From: a virus
Length of the DNA: 40,658 nt
Reading direction: 5' to 3' (one strand)
Virus record (IMG/VR): IMGVR_UViG_3300046816_000075
Coordinates: 1 to 40,658 of that record
Position numbers and translations under genes: made by a program. This document shows positions 3,865-25,277 of this stretch, piece by piece; position 1 is the stretch's first letter; every line of letters starts with the position of its first letter. The notes below the pieces were generated by a model. The model saw only the letters and a program-made list of their open reading frames with translations, did no database searches and was not told the DNA's origin.

Positions 3865-5676
3865 TTACTGCCGGTACGCCTGCTGCGCGCCGCCGACCGC
3901 CGACTGGATCATCGAGGGGATGTCGATGCCGCCCGGGCCTCCGGGTGCGCCCTGCCCGCGTGGCGGCGGGACCAGCGGCGGCGTGGCCGACGGTGCCGGT
4001 GGCGGACCCTGCCCGACCGAGGGCGGCGGTGTCTGCTGCGCCTGCCCGACCGTCTCGACCGCCTGCTTGCCCGCCGAGGCGAGGCTGTCGGTGCCGCCGC
4101 CCGCATCCTTGAACGCCTTGGCCAGCATCGGGATCATCGCCATCATGTTCTTCTGGTTCGCCTGCTGGCCCATCTGCGCGGTCTGGTCGTCGGTCTTGAG
4201 CATGGCGTCGTCGACGCCGAACCAGTCGAACAGCATCGGCGTGACCTTGGTCATGTCGATGGGCGCGAACAGTTGCTGCGCCACGTCCGGCCCCAGCTTG
4301 GCCAGCGGTTCGAGCACAGCGATCACCTGCTCGAAGCCCTGCGCGATCTGCGACTTCTGCGCCCGCGCCAGCGGCGACGAATACTCGATGCGCATGTCCG
4401 CGCCTTGGATTTCATCGGGCGGCTGCTCGAAGGCGTTCATCCGCGACATGATGCCGAACACCCGCTCGACCAGCGGGTTCAAGAACTCGTTCTCAAGGCG
4501 GCCCAGCACCGGGCCGAGCAGGCGCATGCGCTCTGTCTGCCGCTGGATAACTTCCGTTGCCGTCATCTTGAAGTCGCCGACGAACTGCACCTGATCGACG
4601 AACATCGTCGTCCTGATCGCGTCGTCCAGCTTGGCGATGTACTCGCCCGCGTAGGGCAACTGCGCCGAGGTCGGCATCTGGCCGATTTCGGTCTTGTTGC
4701 GCAGGTAGGTCAGTGAACCCGCGTACTGGCGTACTGGTCCGACAAGGCCTTCGTGCGGTACGGTCAGCGGCGGGTCCACTGCCTTCTCTGCCGCACGCAT
4801 CACGGTTCGCGTTGCAGCGTTGGCGACCTTGACCTGCGGCAAAGCTGTCATCAGCGGCGAGCGCCCGAACACCTCCCCGGAAATCACCCACCAGCGCGGC
4901 ACCACGTAGGGCATTTCCTCGACGCCGCTTTCCTCCAGCAGGTGCTGCTCGCCTTCCTCGATGTAGCAGATGGCGATGGGCATGTTCGCCGGGGTCTTGC
5001 TGCCGTAGGCGCGGTCCTTGTCCTCGCGCGGCGAGCAGACGTTGAGCACCTTGAACTTCTCGTCGTACCTGCCCTTGTCGTACAGCGCCGTCACCTTCGG
5101 CGAAACCTTGTCGCCCCAGATGTCGACCATGCTGCGCACGGTGTACATGCTGTCGCGCATCACCGTGTCGATGAAGCCGTACTCGTTCTCCGCCACCACG
5201 CACTCGAACACCGGGTAGGTGCGCACGAAGATGTGGCCCTTCTTCTGCTGGCCGACGTACATCACCGCCGTGCCGAGGCTCGCCATGTCTTCCAGCAACT
5301 GGTTCGCCTGCGAGTGGAACGCGGTGAACGGCGAGGACAGCGCGTTGGAAATCCCCTTGGACACGCCGTTCGTCCAGTGCTTGGCGCTCTCCTGCTCGTC
5401 CAGCGCCTCGTTGGCCAGCCGGATGTTGAGCCAGTTGGTCGCCGGGTTCATCAGCATGCCGTGCATCGCAGCCGCCAAGGTCTGCACGCACTGGATGCCG
5501 ATGGGGTTGAAGATTTGCGGACTGATGCGGCGGTCGCCGTCGGCGCGCGGACCCTGCGCGCCCATGCGGCGCGGTGCGCCATAGCGGGCGCAATCGTCCC
5601 ACATGTTTTTCCAGTTGCCCCGGTCGCTGTCGAGGTGATTGTAGCGTGCGATCAGCTTCTCGACGTCAGCCGCCAC
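3865..5676 (-). CDS. Portal protein (T7-type head-to-tail connector)
   Basis: 603 aa from GTG at 5676. It forms the dodecameric ring at one capsid vertex through which DNA is packaged and ejected. Signatures include RYNHLDSDRGNWKNMWDDCARY at the N terminus, LAAAMHGMLMNPATNWLNI, LLEDMASLGTAVMYV, a conserved GEVFGRSPLMTALPQVK stretch near residue 285, and GDFKMTATEVIQRQTERM leading into the stem helix. The last 70 residues are a Pro/Gly/Gln-rich tail ending in QSAVGGAQQAYRQ, longer than in T7 gp8 (536 aa). The start overlaps the HExxH gene by 11 bases. Confidence 0.93.
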   Translation of the reverse strand: MAADVEKLIARYNHLDSDRGNWKNMWDDCARYGAPRRMGAQGPRADGDRRISPQIFNPIGIQCVQTLAAAMHGMLMNPATNWLNIRLANEALDEQESAKHWTNGVSKGISNALSSPFTAFHSQANQLLEDMASLGTAVMYVGQQKKGHIFVRTYPVFECVVAENEYGFIDTVMRDSMYTVRSMVDIWGDKVSPKVTALYDKGRYDEKFKVLNVCSPREDKDRAYGSKTPANMPIAICYIEEGEQHLLEESGVEEMPYVVPRWWVISGEVFGRSPLMTALPQVKVANAATRTVMRAAEKAVDPPLTVPHEGLVGPVRQYAGSLTYLRNKTEIGQMPTSAQLPYAGEYIAKLDDAIRTTMFVDQVQFVGDFKMTATEVIQRQTERMRLLGPVLGRLENEFLNPLVERVFGIMSRMNAFEQPPDEIQGADMRIEYSSPLARAQKSQIAQGFEQVIAVLEPLAKLGPDVAQQLFAPIDMTKVTPMLFDWFGVDDAMLKTDDQTAQMGQQANQKNMMAMIPMLAKAFKDAGGGTDSLASAGKQAVETVGQAQQTPPPSVGQGPPPAPSATPPLVPPPRGQGAPGGPGGIDIPSMIQSAVGGAQQAYRQ

Positions 5677-8135: not shown

Positions 8136-8366
8136 TCACGCCAGCAGTCGCAGCATGGGGTCACCCAGTCGACCGAGAACGCCGTGGGGCAACACCAGTC
8201 GCACCAGAATTAAGATGCAGATCAGCGCGAAGATGACCCACAAAATCTGAATGACCTTGGCCGGGATCGGCACGCCGATGACCGTGGTGAGCACCCAGAT
8301 CACCAGATAGATCACCAGTGCGACGAGGCAGATGTAGATCAGTGCGTAGATAATGCCTTCGATCAT
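8136..8366 (-). CDS. Two-helix membrane protein, holin candidate
   Basis: 76 aa, starting MIEGIIYALIYICLVALVIY. Two hydrophobic segments (about 2-27 and 38-60) are separated by a short loop with GVPIPAK, and the end is short with few charges. Size and topology fit a class II holin, and small proteins of this kind recur in rhizobial phages. It is far from the endolysin (24022-24981) in the linear map but in the same long minus-strand operon. ATGA overlap with the 28-aa membrane ORF upstream. Holin function is inference from topology only. Confidence 0.65.
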   Translation of the reverse strand: MIEGIIYALIYICLVALVIYLVIWVLTTVIGVPIPAKVIQILWVIFALICILILVRLVLPHGVLGRLGDPMLRLLA

Positions 8367-8449
8367 TGTCGCCTCCCTGCTGCCGCGTATCCAATCCAGA
8401 ACCCGACGCCCATGATGGCGATGACGATGATCAGGTCGAGGGTGGTCAC
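8363..8449 (-). CDS. 28-aa single-helix membrane peptide
   Basis: GTG start gives MTTLDLIIVIAIMGVGFWIG, then YAAAGRRQ. One transmembrane helix, then a basic end, so the C terminus is probably cytoplasmic. It is locked between neighbours by a GTGA overlap upstream and an ATGA overlap downstream, strong evidence that it is translated. Its pairing with the two-helix protein suggests a holin/antiholin or pinholin pair. That role is inferred. Confidence 0.6.
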   Translation of the reverse strand: MTTLDLIIVIAIMGVGFWIGYAAAGRRQ

Positions 8450-8673
8450 GTCTGTGTTCTCGGTGCCCCGTTGTCCTCGCGCGTGATGGCGACGTTGACC
8501 CACATCGCCACCGTCCGCAGCGAGCGCAGGATGAAGGTCTTGTCGGGGCCTTCCGGCACGCCGATTTCGATCAGCTTGGCGTACTGCGCGGCACCGCCGC
8601 GCAGTTCGTCCATCATTTCGACTTGCCGTTCGGTTGGTCGATGGTAGTCGAACGCCTGCTTGTCGAGGCTCAT
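8446..8673 (-). CDS. Acb2/Tad1 hairpin-domain-like protein (candidate anti-CBASS nucleotide sponge)
   Basis: 75 aa. The sequence FDYHRPTERQ...MDELRG...AKLIEIGVPEGPDKTFILRSL...MWVNVAITRED follows the F-x-Y-H-x-P ... L-R ... VP-x-x-x-x-K ... L ... MWxNxAIxR signature of short phage proteins assigned to the Acb2/Tad1 hairpin family. Acb2 proteins form hexamers that sequester cyclic oligonucleotides and so block CBASS immunity. The usual REKSLAL segment is diverged to DKTFILR, so ligand range could differ. ATGA and GTGA overlaps on both sides. Family membership is recognised by pattern; anti-CBASS activity is inference. Confidence 0.65.
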   Translation of the reverse strand: MSLDKQAFDYHRPTERQVEMMDELRGGAAQYAKLIEIGVPEGPDKTFILRSLRTVAMWVNVAITREDNGAPRTQT

Positions 8674-9203
8674 CGACGGCTGCCCCGCTTTTTGTGCTCG
8701 TCGTCGTCGTCATTCTTGCCAGCCTTGGCCGACATTGCGCCGCCCTCTGGCGGTGCTTCCGCCGTGAAGGTGAACGGCACTTCGGTGGATGGCGCGAACC
8801 CTGCGTTGCGCACCGTCACCGGCACCGCATCGGGATTGACGAACAGCGACGGCTTCACGCCGGTCGACACCTGCGTGGCGGAAATGAACTTGGTCGGCTC
8901 GTCGTGCTCGCCGAACACGATGACGCTCTTGGGGTGGAAGCCGGTGCCAGTGATTACCAACGTGATGTCCTTGGGATCGCCGCACACTGCGGTGTCTGGT
9001 TCGAGCGCCGTGATCGTCGGCTGCTCGATGCCTTCGATGCGCACGCCCTCTGCGCCCACGTCCATCGGGACGATTTCATCTTCTGCCATGGTGATAGCCC
9101 TCTGTACTGGTTTACGTCGTGGCTTGGGTAATGGCTTGGGTAATGGCTTGGGCAACGCGCGGCTGCGCTTTTTGCTCCGTACCGGCTTTGCCTTCTTCTT
9201 CAC
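8670..9203 (-). CDS. IPT/TIG Ig-like domain protein
   Basis: 177 aa from GTG 9203, which overlaps the terminase stop as GTGA. A second in-frame start, ATG 9089 (138 aa), has AGAGGG eight bases upstream and may be the main one. The N-terminal extension is basic with PLPKPLPKPLPKP, coded by a 12-bp tandem repeat. The core about 60-145 (ITALEPDTAVCGDPKDITLVITGTGF, KSVIVFGE, VPVTVRNAGFAPSTEVPFTFT) is a single IPT/TIG beta-sandwich like those on capsid surfaces or tails. The C terminus is charged (KNDDDDEHKKRG). Probably a virion surface or decoration protein. Confidence 0.75.
   Translation of the reverse strand: MKKKAKPVRSKKRSRALPKPLPKPLPKPRRKPVQRAITMAEDEIVPMDVGAEGVRIEGIEQPTITALEPDTAVCGDPKDITLVITGTGFHPKSVIVFGEHDEPTKFISATQVSTGVKPSLFVNPDAVPVTVRNAGFAPSTEVPFTFTAEAPPEGGAMSAKAGKNDDDDEHKKRGSRR
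9121..9156. repeat. 12-bp tandem repeat, three units
   Basis: Units GGCTTGGGTAAT, GGCTTGGGTAAT and GGCTTGGGCAAC. The length keeps frame and codes the repeated Pro-Lys-Pro-Leu run in the N-terminal extension of the IPT/TIG gene, so copy number could vary without a frameshift. Confidence 0.85.
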
Positions 9204-10660
9204 AGTGCCTCGGTCTGTTGTCCCCGGGCATAGTGTCGGTGTTCGCGACTGGCGTCCAGCATATCATAGGGTTCGTCCAGCGCCTCGGTGTGCCTGCGAT
9301 AGTCGGCGGCGAACTCGCCCCCGGCGAACGTCAGGCAGAAGGCGTCTGCCACATCCGGCGACTTCAGGCCCCGCTTCTTCATTTCGTCCTTCGGCTCGAT
9401 CTGCAGCTTGCCCGAGGACAGCGGCTTGTAGGTCGGCCCCACGAGGTCGCTGATCAGCGCCGGATCGTTGGGGATGCGGCAGTCGCGGGCCATGAACCAC
9501 TCGCGCGCGTTCCACCACAACTCATCGCGCAGCCGCATGTAGCGGTCGGGCTGGCTTGAGGTTTCCCCGACGTTGACGCCGAACACCGGCAGGCCCAGTT
9601 CACGCAGGCGGTCGATCACGCCAGCGCCGATGCCGATGACATCGCCGTTGATCACCGACGGCTTGGTGCTGTCGGGCGTCTCGAAGTATTCACGGCTGAC
9701 GATGCCGCAGCTTTCCATCAGGTCGCGGTGCCGCCACACCTTGGCGGGCTCGATGACGTGATTGCCTCGTCGCTTGACCAGCGCGCAGCGGTCATCACCA
9801 AAACGCGCAACATCCAGCCCCCACACGCACGCTCGACCGCTGGTGACAGCCACGTCGCGCGCGACTGCAGCCTCAACAAGGTCAAGGCTAATAACAGCGT
9901 TATCCTCAGACGTAGGAAAGTCGCCTTTGACCCGGATGCGGAAGACATTGGAGTGCTCGCCATACTCGCGCGCCATCTGTTCGGGATAGTTCGGAGAAGA
10001 CCACGGGTTCAACTGCCATGGCCAGTGCAGGCAGTGCCACAGCCAGCGCCCCTCCTTGAAAGCGCGCGAGAAGTAGCCCATCGACTTGTTTGGGTTGCCA
10101 ATCATCAGCGCGTGCGAGCCCTTCGAGGACATTGCGCCGGATGCGATTTCAAAGATGATGTCCTCCATGCCGCTGGCTTCTTCCAGCAGGAACAGCAGGT
10201 TCTCGCTGTGGAAACCTTGCAGGGCTTCGGGGTTGGACTTCGAGGCGGTACGCGCCACCATGAAGCTGTCCTCGGGCATGGCTCGCAGCGTGATCCGCTC
10301 CAGCCCGATGTCGTACTGCGAGCGAAGTGCTTCCGGCAGCAGGCGTCCCCATTTCATCAGTTCGGACCATGTCACGTCACGCAACTGGTCCTGCGTGTTT
10401 GCGGCTACTGGTATCTTGCAGGGGAAGTGCGTCGTGATGAAGTACCACGCGATCCATGACAGCAGCGCGGTCTTGCCCTGATCGTGCGCGGCGCGGATCG
10501 CCAGATGTGTGTGCGTGCGAAACGCAATGAGCGCCTCGACCTGATGCGGCTCAGGCTTGGCGCAGAGCACGTCGGTGACGAACAGCAGCGGATCAGCTTG
10601 GATCGCGCACGTCTGCCACGCTTCCATTCGTTCGCGGTCGGTCTTCGGCGGAGTGTTCAA
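9200..10660 (-). CDS. Terminase large subunit
   Basis: 486 aa from TTG 10660 (AGGGCG upstream); ATG 10627 is an alternative. It is the packaging motor ATPase and nuclease. The Walker A region is IRAAHDQGKTALLSW (about 55-69). GKT is kept, but the usual first two glycines of SGHGVGKT are Ala and Asp. Walker B is LLFLLEEA (155-162). Nuclease acidic residues are visible at D283 (GLDVARFGDD), D340 (NGDVIGIG) and D436/D439 (DVADAF). The Q-containing adenine motif is near PEPHQVEAL (37-45). The start lies inside the small-subunit gene (68-base overlap). Confidence 0.92.
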   Translation of the reverse strand: MNTPPKTDRERMEAWQTCAIQADPLLFVTDVLCAKPEPHQVEALIAFRTHTHLAIRAAHDQGKTALLSWIAWYFITTHFPCKIPVAANTQDQLRDVTWSELMKWGRLLPEALRSQYDIGLERITLRAMPEDSFMVARTASKSNPEALQGFHSENLLFLLEEASGMEDIIFEIASGAMSSKGSHALMIGNPNKSMGYFSRAFKEGRWLWHCLHWPWQLNPWSSPNYPEQMAREYGEHSNVFRIRVKGDFPTSEDNAVISLDLVEAAVARDVAVTSGRACVWGLDVARFGDDRCALVKRRGNHVIEPAKVWRHRDLMESCGIVSREYFETPDSTKPSVINGDVIGIGAGVIDRLRELGLPVFGVNVGETSSQPDRYMRLRDELWWNAREWFMARDCRIPNDPALISDLVGPTYKPLSSGKLQIEPKDEMKKRGLKSPDVADAFCLTFAGGEFAADYRRHTEALDEPYDMLDASREHRHYARGQQTEAL

Positions 10661-12640: not shown

Positions 12641-12799
12641 ATGCCCGGCAAGAAGTCCAAGCTGATGACCCGTATGGAAGCGGCCCGCAAGGGCTGGCGG
12701 ACCAAGAAGAAACAACTGGCGGCGCGTAAAGCAAAAGCGCCTGCCGTTGTTGGTGGGTCGGCAGACGCTTCTGCGAAACGAGGCCAGCCGACTAGCTGA
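12641..12799 (+). CDS. Small basic protein, 52 aa
   Basis: MPGKKSKLMTRMEAARKGWR, then TKKKQLAARKAKAPAVVGG and a Ser/Ala end. About 17 Lys/Arg in the first 33 residues, so nucleic-acid binding is likely. GGTGAG lies four bases before the ATG. It is the only plus-strand gene among the left-hand minus genes and its stop overlaps the end of the GcrA-like gene by eight bases (convergent). No family recognised. Confidence 0.45.
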   Translation: MPGKKSKLMTRMEAARKGWRTKKKQLAARKAKAPAVVGGSADASAKRGQPTS

Positions 12800-13280
12800 A
12801 GGACGCCTGACCCGAGAAGACTTTTAACGGAGGCGGCTTGGTGCAGGCAACAAGCCTGTGCGCCTCGCAGTACACGTGCTCCCCGCCATTGTCGGCCCCA
12901 CATGATCCACCCTCGACCGGCCAGCGGCAGTGCCGGGGTTCGAGGTCGACAATCTGCACGGGCTTGCAGCCATCCAATGGCAGCCAGACGGCTTCGAGGG
13001 GCAGCGGCTGCGGCGGCTTCGGGTTGGGTTTCAGCTTCGGCACGGGCGTGGGTATCCTTCTGTCGGGGACGGCAGTCAGCGGCTTCTGCGGGCGCGGCTT
13101 GACCATGTCGGGCATCAGTCCTTTGGGGCGGCTTAGTCCTATGCGGAACATGCGCCCGCACACGGCAGCGCGGGTGCGCTTGAGCATTTCACCGATGAGC
13201 GAAGCCGACTTGCGGTCGCGCAAGGCGTGCAGCACCGCGTCTTCCTCGTCGGTCCAGAACGGCTTGCCGCCACTATGCAC
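12792..13280 (-). CDS. GcrA-family transcription regulator
   Basis: 162 aa from GTG 13280, overlapping the XRE stop by eight bases. N-terminal HTH about 8-52: FWTDEEDAVLHALRDRKSASLIGEMLKRTRAAVCGRMFRIGL, the GcrA pattern (W-x-x-E ... SASxIA ... TRNAVIGKxxRLGL). A Pro-rich linker follows (70-95), then a GcrA-like C-terminal segment with HCRWPV...YCEAH (118-141). In Alphaproteobacteria GcrA binds sigma-70 and CcrM-methylated GANTC promoters. Phage copies presumably redirect host RNA polymerase. Likely the activator of phage late or middle genes. Confidence 0.85.
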   Translation of the reverse strand: MHSGGKPFWTDEEDAVLHALRDRKSASLIGEMLKRTRAAVCGRMFRIGLSRPKGLMPDMVKPRPQKPLTAVPDRRIPTPVPKLKPNPKPPQPLPLEAVWLPLDGCKPVQIVDLEPRHCRWPVEGGSCGADNGGEHVYCEAHRLVACTKPPPLKVFSGQASFS

Positions 13281-13857: not shown

Positions 13858-13967
13858 TTGCAGCAGCCTCCTGCGCAGAAGCCGGAATGACAGGCCTGCG
13901 CGGGCGTGATGCCCGGGGTGCATGCCAGCAGCGCCAGCGCGGTGATGATCAGGATCAGGGTCTTCAC
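13854..13967 (-). CDS. 37-aa Cys-rich secreted lipopeptide
   Basis: GTG start with AAGGAGA upstream: MKTLILIITALALLACTPG, then a short TPAQA stretch and the Cys-rich end CHSGFCAGGCCK. A hydrophobic signal segment ends in a lipobox-like LLAC, so Cys16 may be lipidated; cleavage after AQA is an alternative. GTGA overlap with the HD gene and ATGA overlap with the zinc-ribbon gene tie it into the operon. It could be a membrane decoy or superinfection-exclusion peptide. No homologue recognised. Confidence 0.6.
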   Translation of the reverse strand: MKTLILIITALALLACTPGITPAQACHSGFCAGGCCK

Positions 13968-14479
13968 GGTGTCTCCTTCACTTGGTCGTTGGCCATGTCC
14001 CACAGCTTGGAGTTCCCGGCCTTGAGGACCTCCAGCAGTTCCCGCTTTTCGGCCAAGTACACCTTGGCGAACTCCGGGTCGTACCACTCGATGGTGCAGG
14101 TGTTGTCGATCAGGTCGGCCAGCTTGATGGTCTGCGCTGCTGCGCTGGCGTCCGCGAGGAACGCCCGGTTGATCTTGGCGCGCACCGCCCGGTCGGGATC
14201 GACCGAGGGGTTGGTGACCTGCCGCACCAGTTCCGCCACCCCGGTGCCGAACTCGTTGATCAGTTGGCCGTAGGTAGTGGTGGTATCTTCGAGGGTGTCG
14301 TGCAGGTGCGCTGCCGCGATCATGATGGGGTTGTCGGTGACCATCGCCACGATCCGCGCCACCGCTTCGGTGTGCAGCCAGTAGGGCGCACCCGTGTACA
14401 TTCGCTTTTGATGGGCGTGCTGGAGGCGGGCGAAGGTCTTCGCCCGCTCGATCAGTGCGTTGTTCTGGTTCTTTTTCAT
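13964..14479 (-). CDS. MESH1/SpoT-type HD hydrolase (candidate ppGpp hydrolase)
   Basis: 171 aa. Motifs follow the MESH1 order: TGAPYWLHTEAVARIV (H36), AAAHLHDTLEDTTTTYGQL (H60, D61, catalytic-type E64-D65), EFGTGVAELVRQVTN, and TIKLADLIDN (D122, N126). In SpoT and MESH1 these residues hold Mn2+ and remove pyrophosphate from (p)ppGpp; some relatives act on other nucleotides. There is no synthetase domain in this protein. It has its own promoter with an early operator over the -35. A RelA/SpoT-like domain is coded separately in the 1550-aa ejection protein. Activity is inferred from intact motifs. Confidence 0.8.
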   Translation of the reverse strand: MKKNQNNALIERAKTFARLQHAHQKRMYTGAPYWLHTEAVARIVAMVTDNPIMIAAAHLHDTLEDTTTTYGQLINEFGTGVAELVRQVTNPSVDPDRAVRAKINRAFLADASAAAQTIKLADLIDNTCTIEWYDPEFAKVYLAEKRELLEVLKAGNSKLWDMANDQVKETP

Positions 14480-16232: not shown

Positions 16233-16306
16233 AACAACTGGCCATTGACCCCAGTACCTCCACGGGCGCATACTCTGTCGGCTAACTCTCTTTGCAAGGA
16301 GTAAAT

Positions 16307-16996
16307 ATGAGAAAAGCACAAGGAATACTGGCAGGGCTCGCCCTGCTGGCAATGGCTGGGGTGGCGCAAACACCAGCGAAGGCCGCTACGTTCACGCAAA
16401 GCGATTTTGCGGGAACTGGCACTTTCGGTACAGCGTCGGCATCCTGCTTGGATGCCTCCTGCGATCAGGTTGGCGTCAACGTCAGCATGACCCCCAACAT
16501 TCTGCTCCAGACAGGCTCGCACTTCCTGTTCAACTTGAGCTTGGCTGGATCGGGGTTCATCGACGCTTCGTCAATCGACCTCGCACAAGGCACCAACATT
16601 CAGGTGCTGACACACACCAGCCCCGCCACTTACTCAAACGGGCCGTTCAAGTTCTTCTCGGACGGTATTTCTGCTAACTGCGGCAACGGTGGGTCGTCTG
16701 GCGGCTGCGGGAGCACACTGTCGTTTACAATCGACAACTTCAGTGGCTTCCTTTTCGCCACCACTCAGTTCAACAACATGAACATCATTGCAGCGGCAGA
16801 CGTTCTGCTCACCGACTGCACAGGTGGTTGCACTGGTCCCGTTGGGTTGACGGGCGACTTGGTGCCGACACCGTTCGCGGTGCCGACGCCTATCGCCGGT
16901 TCTGGTCCGTTGTTTGTCAGCGGCCTCGCCGGACTGTGGGCGCTGATGCGGCGGCGGAAGAAAAGGCTGGGCTTGCACCTGCCAGCGGCGGCATAG
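16307..16996 (+). CDS. Secreted protein with PEP-CTERM-like C-terminal sorting tail (cargo gene)
   Basis: 229 aa, starting MRKAQGILAGLALLAMAGVA, with AAGGAG before the ATG. The signal peptide probably ends at AKA, residue 26. The middle is Ser/Gly/Thr/Asn-rich beta sequence with four spaced Cys pairs (SCLDASC, CGNGGSSGGC, CTGGC). The end has VPTPIAGSG, a hydrophobic helix (PLFVSGLAGLWALM) and RRRKKR, the tripartite layout of exosortase substrates. VP-x-PI-x-G-x-G variants are common in Bradyrhizobium-like hosts. Bounded by hairpins on both sides and more AT-rich than its neighbours. Probably a host-derived gene exposed on the infected cell surface. Confidence 0.75.
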   Translation: MRKAQGILAGLALLAMAGVAQTPAKAATFTQSDFAGTGTFGTASASCLDASCDQVGVNVSMTPNILLQTGSHFLFNLSLAGSGFIDASSIDLAQGTNIQVLTHTSPATYSNGPFKFFSDGISANCGNGGSSGGCGSTLSFTIDNFSGFLFATTQFNNMNIIAAADVLLTDCTGGCTGPVGLTGDLVPTPFAVPTPIAGSGPLFVSGLAGLWALMRRRKKRLGLHLPAAA

Positions 16997-24021: not shown

Positions 24022-24981
24022 TTACTTCTCTGCCACCTTCCGCTCGTCCGCACCACCGAGAACGGCGGCGATGGCCGTGCAGATGCGGTCGAACTGGCGG
24101 CTGTAGACGTCAGCGTCCGCCGCGCTGTCGACAAAGCAGACCTCGATGAGGATCGCGGGGCCTGTCGTCTGGTTGAGGAAGTACAGGTCGGTGCGCTTCT
24201 TGGCCCCCCGGTTGATGAAGCCGCAGGCGGCGATGGCCCCCGCCATACGCGCGGCGAGCGACGATTGCGTGACGTAGAGCACCTCGCAGCCCATGGGGCT
24301 GGTCGTCTCCACGTAGGCATTGAAATGCACCGATACGTCGAGATCGCGCTGCTCCGAGTTGTGCGCGTCGACGATGGTGGCGAGGTTCTCCGACTGCGAG
24401 GTGCTGGTATCGTCGTTGAAGGTGGTCACCTCGACGCCACGTTCCTGCAGTTCCTCCGCCACCTTTTCGACCACGGCGCGGGCGCAGTCGACCTCGTCGA
24501 GCACTCCAGAGGCACCCCTGACGTATTTGCCGTGGCCCGAGGAAATCACCACCCGGTCATAGACCTGCGCTTCCGGCCCGCGATGCGTGAACGGGAAGAT
24601 CACCTCGACAGTCTCGTCGGTCATCAGGCCCAGTGCTTCGAGCACAAAGGGCGACACATCCGCTATGCGGTTCGTGTTCTCGTGCGGTCCCCAGTCTGCC
24701 GGGTATGCCTTCATCGACTTGCCGGTCTTGGGATTGCGCACCAGCGCCATTTCCTCCAGCAGCATGTAGGGCGGCGTCTCGTCGTAGTCCCAGCGGCAGG
24801 CGATGTAGGGCACCTCCGGGTTGAGCCGTCGCGCCAGCCCGCTGGTCCCTTCCGGCTGGTAGGACAGGAACAGATGCGGGGCTGTCTCGACGTCGTAGAT
24901 GAAGGCCAGCCCCTCGTCGGCGTCGACGCCATCGTCGTCTGGTCCGCCGAACCAACTGACTTTACCCGTGAGGTTTAGCAT
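24022..24981 (-). CDS. Endolysin: N-acetylmuramoyl-L-alanine amidase (Amidase_3) with N-terminal barrel domain
   Basis: 319 aa from ATG 24981, overlapping the 100-aa gene by seven bases. Residues 1-130 (GKVSWFGGPDDDGVDADEGLAFIY, EGTSGLARRLNPEVPYIACRWDYDETP, PADWGPHENTNRIADVSP) form a double-psi-barrel-like module found in phage lysins. Residues about 143-310 are Amidase_3: H150 (SSGHG), E163 (LDEVDCAR), H219 (VSVHFNAY) and E280 (ILIEVCFVDS) are the zinc and catalytic residues. It cuts the amide between MurNAc and L-Ala. No signal peptide, so it needs a holin. Confidence 0.9.
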   Translation of the reverse strand: MLNLTGKVSWFGGPDDDGVDADEGLAFIYDVETAPHLFLSYQPEGTSGLARRLNPEVPYIACRWDYDETPPYMLLEEMALVRNPKTGKSMKAYPADWGPHENTNRIADVSPFVLEALGLMTDETVEVIFPFTHRGPEAQVYDRVVISSGHGKYVRGASGVLDEVDCARAVVEKVAEELQERGVEVTTFNDDTSTSQSENLATIVDAHNSEQRDLDVSVHFNAYVETTSPMGCEVLYVTQSSLAARMAGAIAACGFINRGAKKRTDLYFLNQTTGPAILIEVCFVDSAADADVYSRQFDRICTAIAAVLGGADERKVAEK

Positions 24982-25277
24982 GATGACGGGTTCCACTTGA
25001 GCGCATCGGCCCGCGCCCGCTGGTAGGCAACAACTGACGCCTGCAGTCCGGCAGACGCACGCCCCGGCTGGCCGTGCGTGTCCTTGAGCCAGCCGGTGAA
25101 TAGATGCTTGACGTTCTCCTTGAACGCATCGTCAACCGCCGCCAGCACTTGCGCGCGAATGTGAACGCGGTCTTCGTCAGTGACGCAGGTCGGCACTGGC
25201 GGCACGGTGCCCTGCGCGTAGAGGAAGGTGCCGACCAGCAGCACGGCAACGGAAATGCTGGCGACTGCCCTGATCAT
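24975..25277 (-). CDS. Signal-anchored periplasmic protein beside the endolysin
   Basis: 100 aa, starting MIRAVASISVAVLLVGTFLY. A signal or anchor helix (4-21) precedes a soluble domain: TDEDRVHIRAQVLAAVDDAFKENVKHLFTGWLKD, GRASAGLQASVVAYQRARADALKW and a final NPSSC. Cys at 31 and 100 could pair in the periplasm. Place and topology suggest a lysis accessory (spanin-like or endolysin regulator), but there is no spanin coiled coil. No SD is seen; the start follows the TGA of an 8-codon mini-cistron (TGACATG), so initiation is probably coupled. Confidence 0.65.
   Translation of the reverse strand: MIRAVASISVAVLLVGTFLYAQGTVPPVPTCVTDEDRVHIRAQVLAAVDDAFKENVKHLFTGWLKDTHGQPGRASAGLQASVVAYQRARADALKWNPSSC

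Follow-up and report, generated by a model that had tools for sequence, protein, structure and literature searches.

A putative phage sponge of the Acb2/Tad1 hairpin family with a clade-wide change in helix 2

We describe a 75-amino-acid phage protein of the PF24729 (Acb2/Tad1 hairpin) family as a putative sponge for a nucleotide signal of bacterial immunity, a reading to which we assign a probability of about 0.72. Studied Acb2/Tad1 members soak up the alarm molecules that bacteria use to stop phages. Judged from the residues that set its clade apart, the ligand range of the protein has most likely shifted, and its natural ligand could be a CBASS, a Thoeris or another signal. If this reading holds, a gene common among uncultured phages encodes an immune-signal sponge of altered specificity, and the switch between R43 and R50 offers a simple sequence handle for distinguishing sponge specificities.

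The hairpin gene and its family

The window analysed here is the whole 40,658-nucleotide viral record, and its relevant features are collected in Table 1. The sequence-only reading had called an open reading frame at 8446-8673, and this is borne out: it encodes 75 residues from an ATG start (MSLDKQAFDYHRPTERQVEMMDELRGGAAQYAKLIEIGVPEGPDKTFILRSLRTVAMWVNVAITREDNGAPRTQT) and lies on the minus strand, which had been left unstated. The plus strand of the same interval has no match to the PF24729 family, and a plus-strand reading was rejected for that reason. The gene is real and has a coding-type base composition, its G+C content by codon position (0.63/0.43/0.82) resembling that of the terminase large subunit (TerL) and portal genes. 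At each end it overlaps its neighbour by 4 bp, its start with the upstream stop and its stop with the start of the next gene.

Table 1. Features of the hairpin gene and its surroundings
Feature	Position	Strand	Evidence or comment
Acb2/Tad1-type hairpin protein, 75 aa	8446..8673	-	PF24729, PHROG 1454/31113, AlphaFold, Foldseek
Tyr10 codon	8644..8646	-	aligned with T4 Acb2 Tyr8 and PaP2 Acb2 Tyr11 (dinucleotide-stacking position)
Arg25 codon	8599..8601	-	aligned with T4 Lys23 and PaP2 Lys26; 15 positions past Tyr
Codons 41-50 (EGPDKTFILR)	8524..8553	-	helix-2 N-terminus; clade-specific P43/D44/R50; R53 just beyond
TerL, head of overlap series	9200..10660	-	phrog_2, E 9e-43
TIG/IPT-domain protein, directly upstream of hairpin	8670..9203	-	PF01833, E 5.5e-5, over cut-off
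Putative 28-aa single-pass membrane peptide, GTG start	8363..8449	-	strongly hydrophobic
76-aa hydrophobic protein, probably two membrane passes	8136..8366	-	4-bp overlap with 28-aa peptide
Portal / head-tail connecting protein, downstream, same module	3865..5676	-	PF12236, E 8e-116

Membership of the family is secure when the sequence profile and the predicted fold are taken together, the fold alone being insufficient. PF24729 matches the protein over profile positions 1-58 of 58 with 31.5 bits (E 2e-7; curated cut-off 27 bits), and a scan of all 40.7 kb with this profile gave this one match (31.2 bits at genome level). Two PHROG profiles for which no cut-offs are given also match, 1454 (E 5e-10) and 31113. 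The F-x-Y-H-x-P ... MW-x-N-x-A-I-x-R signature, from which the family assignment had first been made, is thus a real family signal, and the assignment itself has support from the profile, the sequence and the predicted fold. With the PF24729 profile, T4 Acb2 reaches 70 bits and PaP2 Acb2 65 bits; the profile gave no match in 14 control genomes and missed its cut-off in 2 of 17 sampled records that contain relatives. PADLOC and NCBIfam gave no match to the hairpin protein, nor did direct sequence searches of the PDB, whether started from the protein itself or from close relatives; PDB entry 9ptq (‘Acb2 homolog 43’, E 3e-6, with a similar short loop, PEGREK) and Tad1 were reached solely with a broader family profile.

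AlphaFold models of the monomer reached a pLDDT of 88 with 12 relatives and 89 with 38 sequences, with predicted helices at residues 5-8, 15-38 and 43-64. Structural matches of the 12-sequence model were mixed and were sorted out by the 38-sequence model. A structural match to Acb2 or Tad1 had been proposed as a check on the assignment, and one was found: in the Foldseek search of the PDB with the 38-sequence model, T4 and PaP2 Acb2 occupied ranks 1-4 and CbTad1 ranks 6-10 and 14, with weak E-values (0.9 or worse) because small hairpins are common. In the BFVD viral library nearly all matches down to rank 17 were named ‘Acb2/Tad1 hairpin’, these having probabilities close to 1.00 and the best an E-value of 2e-3, a probability of 1.00 and a TM score of about 0.73. 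VIA-align gave Z-scores of 6.3 (7uq2), 6.0 (8h2x) and 5.8 (8h2j) at 12-22% identity to Acb2, and a Z-score of about 6 is equalled by unrelated helical hairpins and bundles.

A retained pocket pair and a clade-wide swap in helix 2

Residue equivalences were taken from two MAFFT alignments, in which Y10 falls on Y8 of T4 and Y11 of PaP2 Acb2, and R25 on K23 and K26; we take PaP2 K26 to be the basic residue of the Acb2 dinucleotide pocket. By these alignments the Tyr/basic pair of that pocket is retained as Y10/R25. Position 10 is Tyr in 103 and Phe in 5 of the 108 R50-type clade sequences, and position 25 is Arg in all 209 family sequences, which were gathered with a pattern that demanded R or K there. 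Binding of cyclic dinucleotides by T4 Acb2 is reported to be disrupted by the Y8A substitution, with F82 stacking against the ligand (PMC12657218), and a review describes Acb2 as having independent pockets for dinucleotides and trinucleotides (PMC12043709).

At other ligand positions the protein departs from Acb2. T4 Phe82 aligns with T64, at which position PaP2 has Ala. PaP2 Arg67, presumably the trinucleotide-site Arg, aligns with P43, as does the Arg of Tad1 ‘SRENACALT’. Because the PaP2 R67 equivalent is P43, we assign the protein to the PF24729 hairpin family without calling it Acb2 proper; T4 Acb2 also lacks an Arg there, so the trinucleotide-site Arg is not a strict mark of the family. 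R50, seven positions on, may replace the missing R67 equivalent.

The replacement of REKSLAL by DKTFILR, already seen in the sequence-only reading, holds up and extends across the clade. A profile search of IMG/VR found at least 216 viral loci with relatives, of which 80 were kept, and the clade is found in many uncultured phages. The searches were seeded with PEGPDKT and xAMWxNV, and conservation of those motifs is therefore partly ascertainment; clade members with PDGPDK, PAGPDK and ADGADK were recovered despite these seeds. Among 209 distinct family sequences with ungapped geometry, 99 have R43 without R50, 108 have R50 without R43, 2 have neither and none has both, in a contingency table that is confounded by ancestry. 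R43-type sequences carry E44, T50 and E53, and R50-type sequences carry P43, D44 and R53. The exclusion of R43 and R50 rests on this table and on about three tree changes, because by mutual information the 43/50 pair ranks only 38 of 1653. A quick, poorly resolved tree that left out columns 43 and 50 puts the number of changes at about three for either label; they fall at the main split, at Brevibacillus phage Jenst and at a Myrna-like group. With so few events, the pattern is suggestive of a compensatory 43/50 swap. In our reading, a needed helix-2 Arg would have shifted two helical turns along, with a reversal of the charge at position 53, a swap that ought to affect the ligand site and may alter specificity.

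The earlier suggestion of a different ligand is plausible on these grounds, the loop change being part of the clade-wide 43/44/50/53 swap while Y10 and R25 are kept. That the P43/D44/R50/R53 clade forms a separate sponge class, for a signal that known Acb2 and Tad1 proteins do not bind and by way of the Arg moved from 43 to 50, is a doubtful proposal at this stage. The literature examined contained no description of the clade, and a preprint of 2025 that deals with how phage sponges differ in function, cited in PMC13232231 and PMC13148439, may already cover it.

A more restricted form of the main reading, overlapping with it, makes the protein a sponge for a non-CBASS signal (Thoeris-type ADPR or one as yet undescribed), with a specificity changed by the helix-2 swap. 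This is possible, although the odds are against it. The clade-wide change from R43/E44/T50/E53 to P43/D44/R50/R53 would suit such a ligand, as would the presence of CbTad1 among the top Foldseek matches and the position of R65, which by an extension of the Tad1 alignment stands where we take Tad1 to have a gcADPR-contacting Arg. Set against it are the retained equivalents of the Acb2 dinucleotide pocket and the missing N-terminal beta domain of Tad1.

Gene neighbourhoods and the packaging alternative

The hairpin gene stands in a run of 4-bp overlaps headed by TerL, the TIG/IPT gene overlapping both TerL and the hairpin gene and the 28-aa peptide gene overlapping the hairpin stop, and we infer that the genes of this run are very probably co-transcribed and translationally coupled. 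The structural neighbours named in the sequence-only reading were found, with TerL on one side and portal, scaffold and capsid genes on the other. Its ‘lysis-like’ neighbours found no support: the small membrane genes beside the hairpin gene have no lysis-family match, the 76-aa hydrophobic protein has no family match above cut-off in Pfam or PHROG, and the amidase-type endolysin gene (24022-24996) lies 15 kb from the hairpin gene. TerL shares 45-50% identity with its counterpart in Sinorhizobium phage phiM5 and with the matching ORF of phage C72C1. A homologue of the GcrA cell-cycle regulator (12792-13280, minus strand; PF07750, E 9e-11), typical of Alphaproteobacteria, is also encoded, and together with the phiM5-related terminase it suggests an alphaproteobacterial host. 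To judge by its related organisms, the phage probably originates from soil.

Several further features of the record were observed. The TIG/IPT protein (8670-9203, minus strand) has a lysine/proline repeat, PKPLPKPLPKPRRKP, near its N-terminus. Hydrophobic peptides of 28-38 aa, their start sharing 4 bp with the hairpin stop, occur here (8363-8449, minus strand) and at loci L041, L048 and L097; they are possible unannotated partners of the hairpin, and a short membrane peptide as a general partner was rejected, such peptides being present at few loci only. A 171-aa RelA/SpoT-type HD hydrolase (13964-14479, minus strand), with the alarmone hydrolases HDDC3/MESH1 as nearest solved relatives (E 4e-13), may destroy (p)ppGpp. 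A 234-aa protein (16292-16996, plus strand) has a signal-peptide-like start and a tail of VPTP, a hydrophobic stretch and RRRKKR that looks PEP-CTERM-like by eye; it has no profile match.

The neighbours of relatives vary, with terminase and portal genes in some and Sak4, exonuclease, DNA polymerase, methyltransferase or ParB genes in others, and a single conserved operon partner was rejected since neighbours differ between relatives. On a different contig (L013) the gene order is again TerL-hairpin-portal. Gordonia phage Schomber has three hairpins around its terminase and portal genes, one of them below the family cut-off; they are of different subtypes (L114, 5685-5897, 8562-8768 and 11591-11806, plus strand). 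Viral contig G002 also holds two hairpin types, one of this clade and one of the AMWAVKA type (51 bits), at L115 (1495-1692, minus strand) and L018 (6001-6222), a pair that may cover two signals. The one-per-species genome contigs gave two matches to relatives, both partial, on which a prophage origin was rejected, and PF24729 was not found in the genome behind L118. The 216 IMG/VR loci against two partial contig matches, together with the shifting neighbourhoods, fit an accessory phage gene. A late position had been thought odd for an anti-defence gene; this objection is weakened, as relatives adjoin terminase or portal genes in Gordonia phages and in L013, and others have replication genes as neighbours. 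We read the position as a probable cargo site and not as a sign of a packaging role, and the late slot appears unexceptional.

This variation also bears on whether the hairpin fold has been reused as a head or packaging accessory, a helper of terminase or portal assembly whose likeness to sponges reflects ancestry only. Such a role would account for the overlap series headed by the terminase, the gene order in L013 and the three Schomber hairpins, but replication, methyltransferase or ParB genes adjoin the hairpin in many relatives, and the Tyr10/Arg25 pocket positions are retained here. Moreover, the terminase-portal interval of phiM5, C72C1 and ctvy9321 holds other, mostly unnamed small genes and, by annotation alone, no hairpin-type product. 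We consider this role unlikely. A decayed or non-binding paralogue with another small-protein role is very improbable, for although the equivalents of PaP2 Arg67 and T4 Phe82 are lost, the 43/50 swap looks compensatory and the relatives' loci combine free synonymous codon use with strict amino-acid conservation at P40-T46, R50, R53 and N60 (the locus search itself favoured the P40-T46 motif).

As a putative sponge, the hairpin would form a symmetric and probably hexameric assembly, as Acb2 does, and bind small cyclic nucleotide signals; with the signal captured, CBASS- or Thoeris-type effectors would not be triggered. The helix-2 swap would shift the second (trinucleotide or other) site without abolishing it, and late expression, expected from the operon, would suit a signal made late in infection.

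Comparison with known sponges

With Acb2 (T4 Vs.4, 7uq2; PaP2 p26, 8h2j/8h2x/8ixz) the protein has in common the PF24729 hairpin, a short N-terminal helix followed by two antiparallel helices, and a Tyr with a basic residue 15 positions later (Y8/K23 in T4, Y11/K26 in PaP2, Y10/R25 here). It is shorter, at 75 aa against 88 in T4 and 93 in PaP2, and lacks the insert that both have between the two long helices. It also has P43 in place of PaP2 Arg67, T64 in place of T4 Phe82, R65 where Acb2 has Gln and V61 where Acb2 has Arg.

In Tad1 (CbTad1 7uav, 8kbe, 8smd) the helix-2 stretch SRENACALTHVEEALMWMN aligns with the hairpin-family stretch GPDKTFILRSLRTVAMWVN, with Arg/Thr at aligned positions 43/50 against Pro/Arg here. 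Tad1 has an N-terminal beta-sheet domain, whereas the present protein is predicted to consist of helices only, and identity with Tad1 was rejected because this domain is absent.

The nearest sister group of the clade in the tree is the REKSLAL type of short hairpins (Paenibacillus and Gordonia phages; 9ptq), which are of similar length. Its phage members share the F-x-Y-x-x-P, R25 and M-W-x-N core, from which 9ptq departs in part. Comparing the two groups across a shared set of ligands could uncover the determinants of ligand choice and may bring to light signals that environmental bacteria use. The REKSLAL type carries R43/E44/T50/E53 with H11 and Y21, whereas this clade carries P43/D44/R50/R53 with M21 and usually L11.
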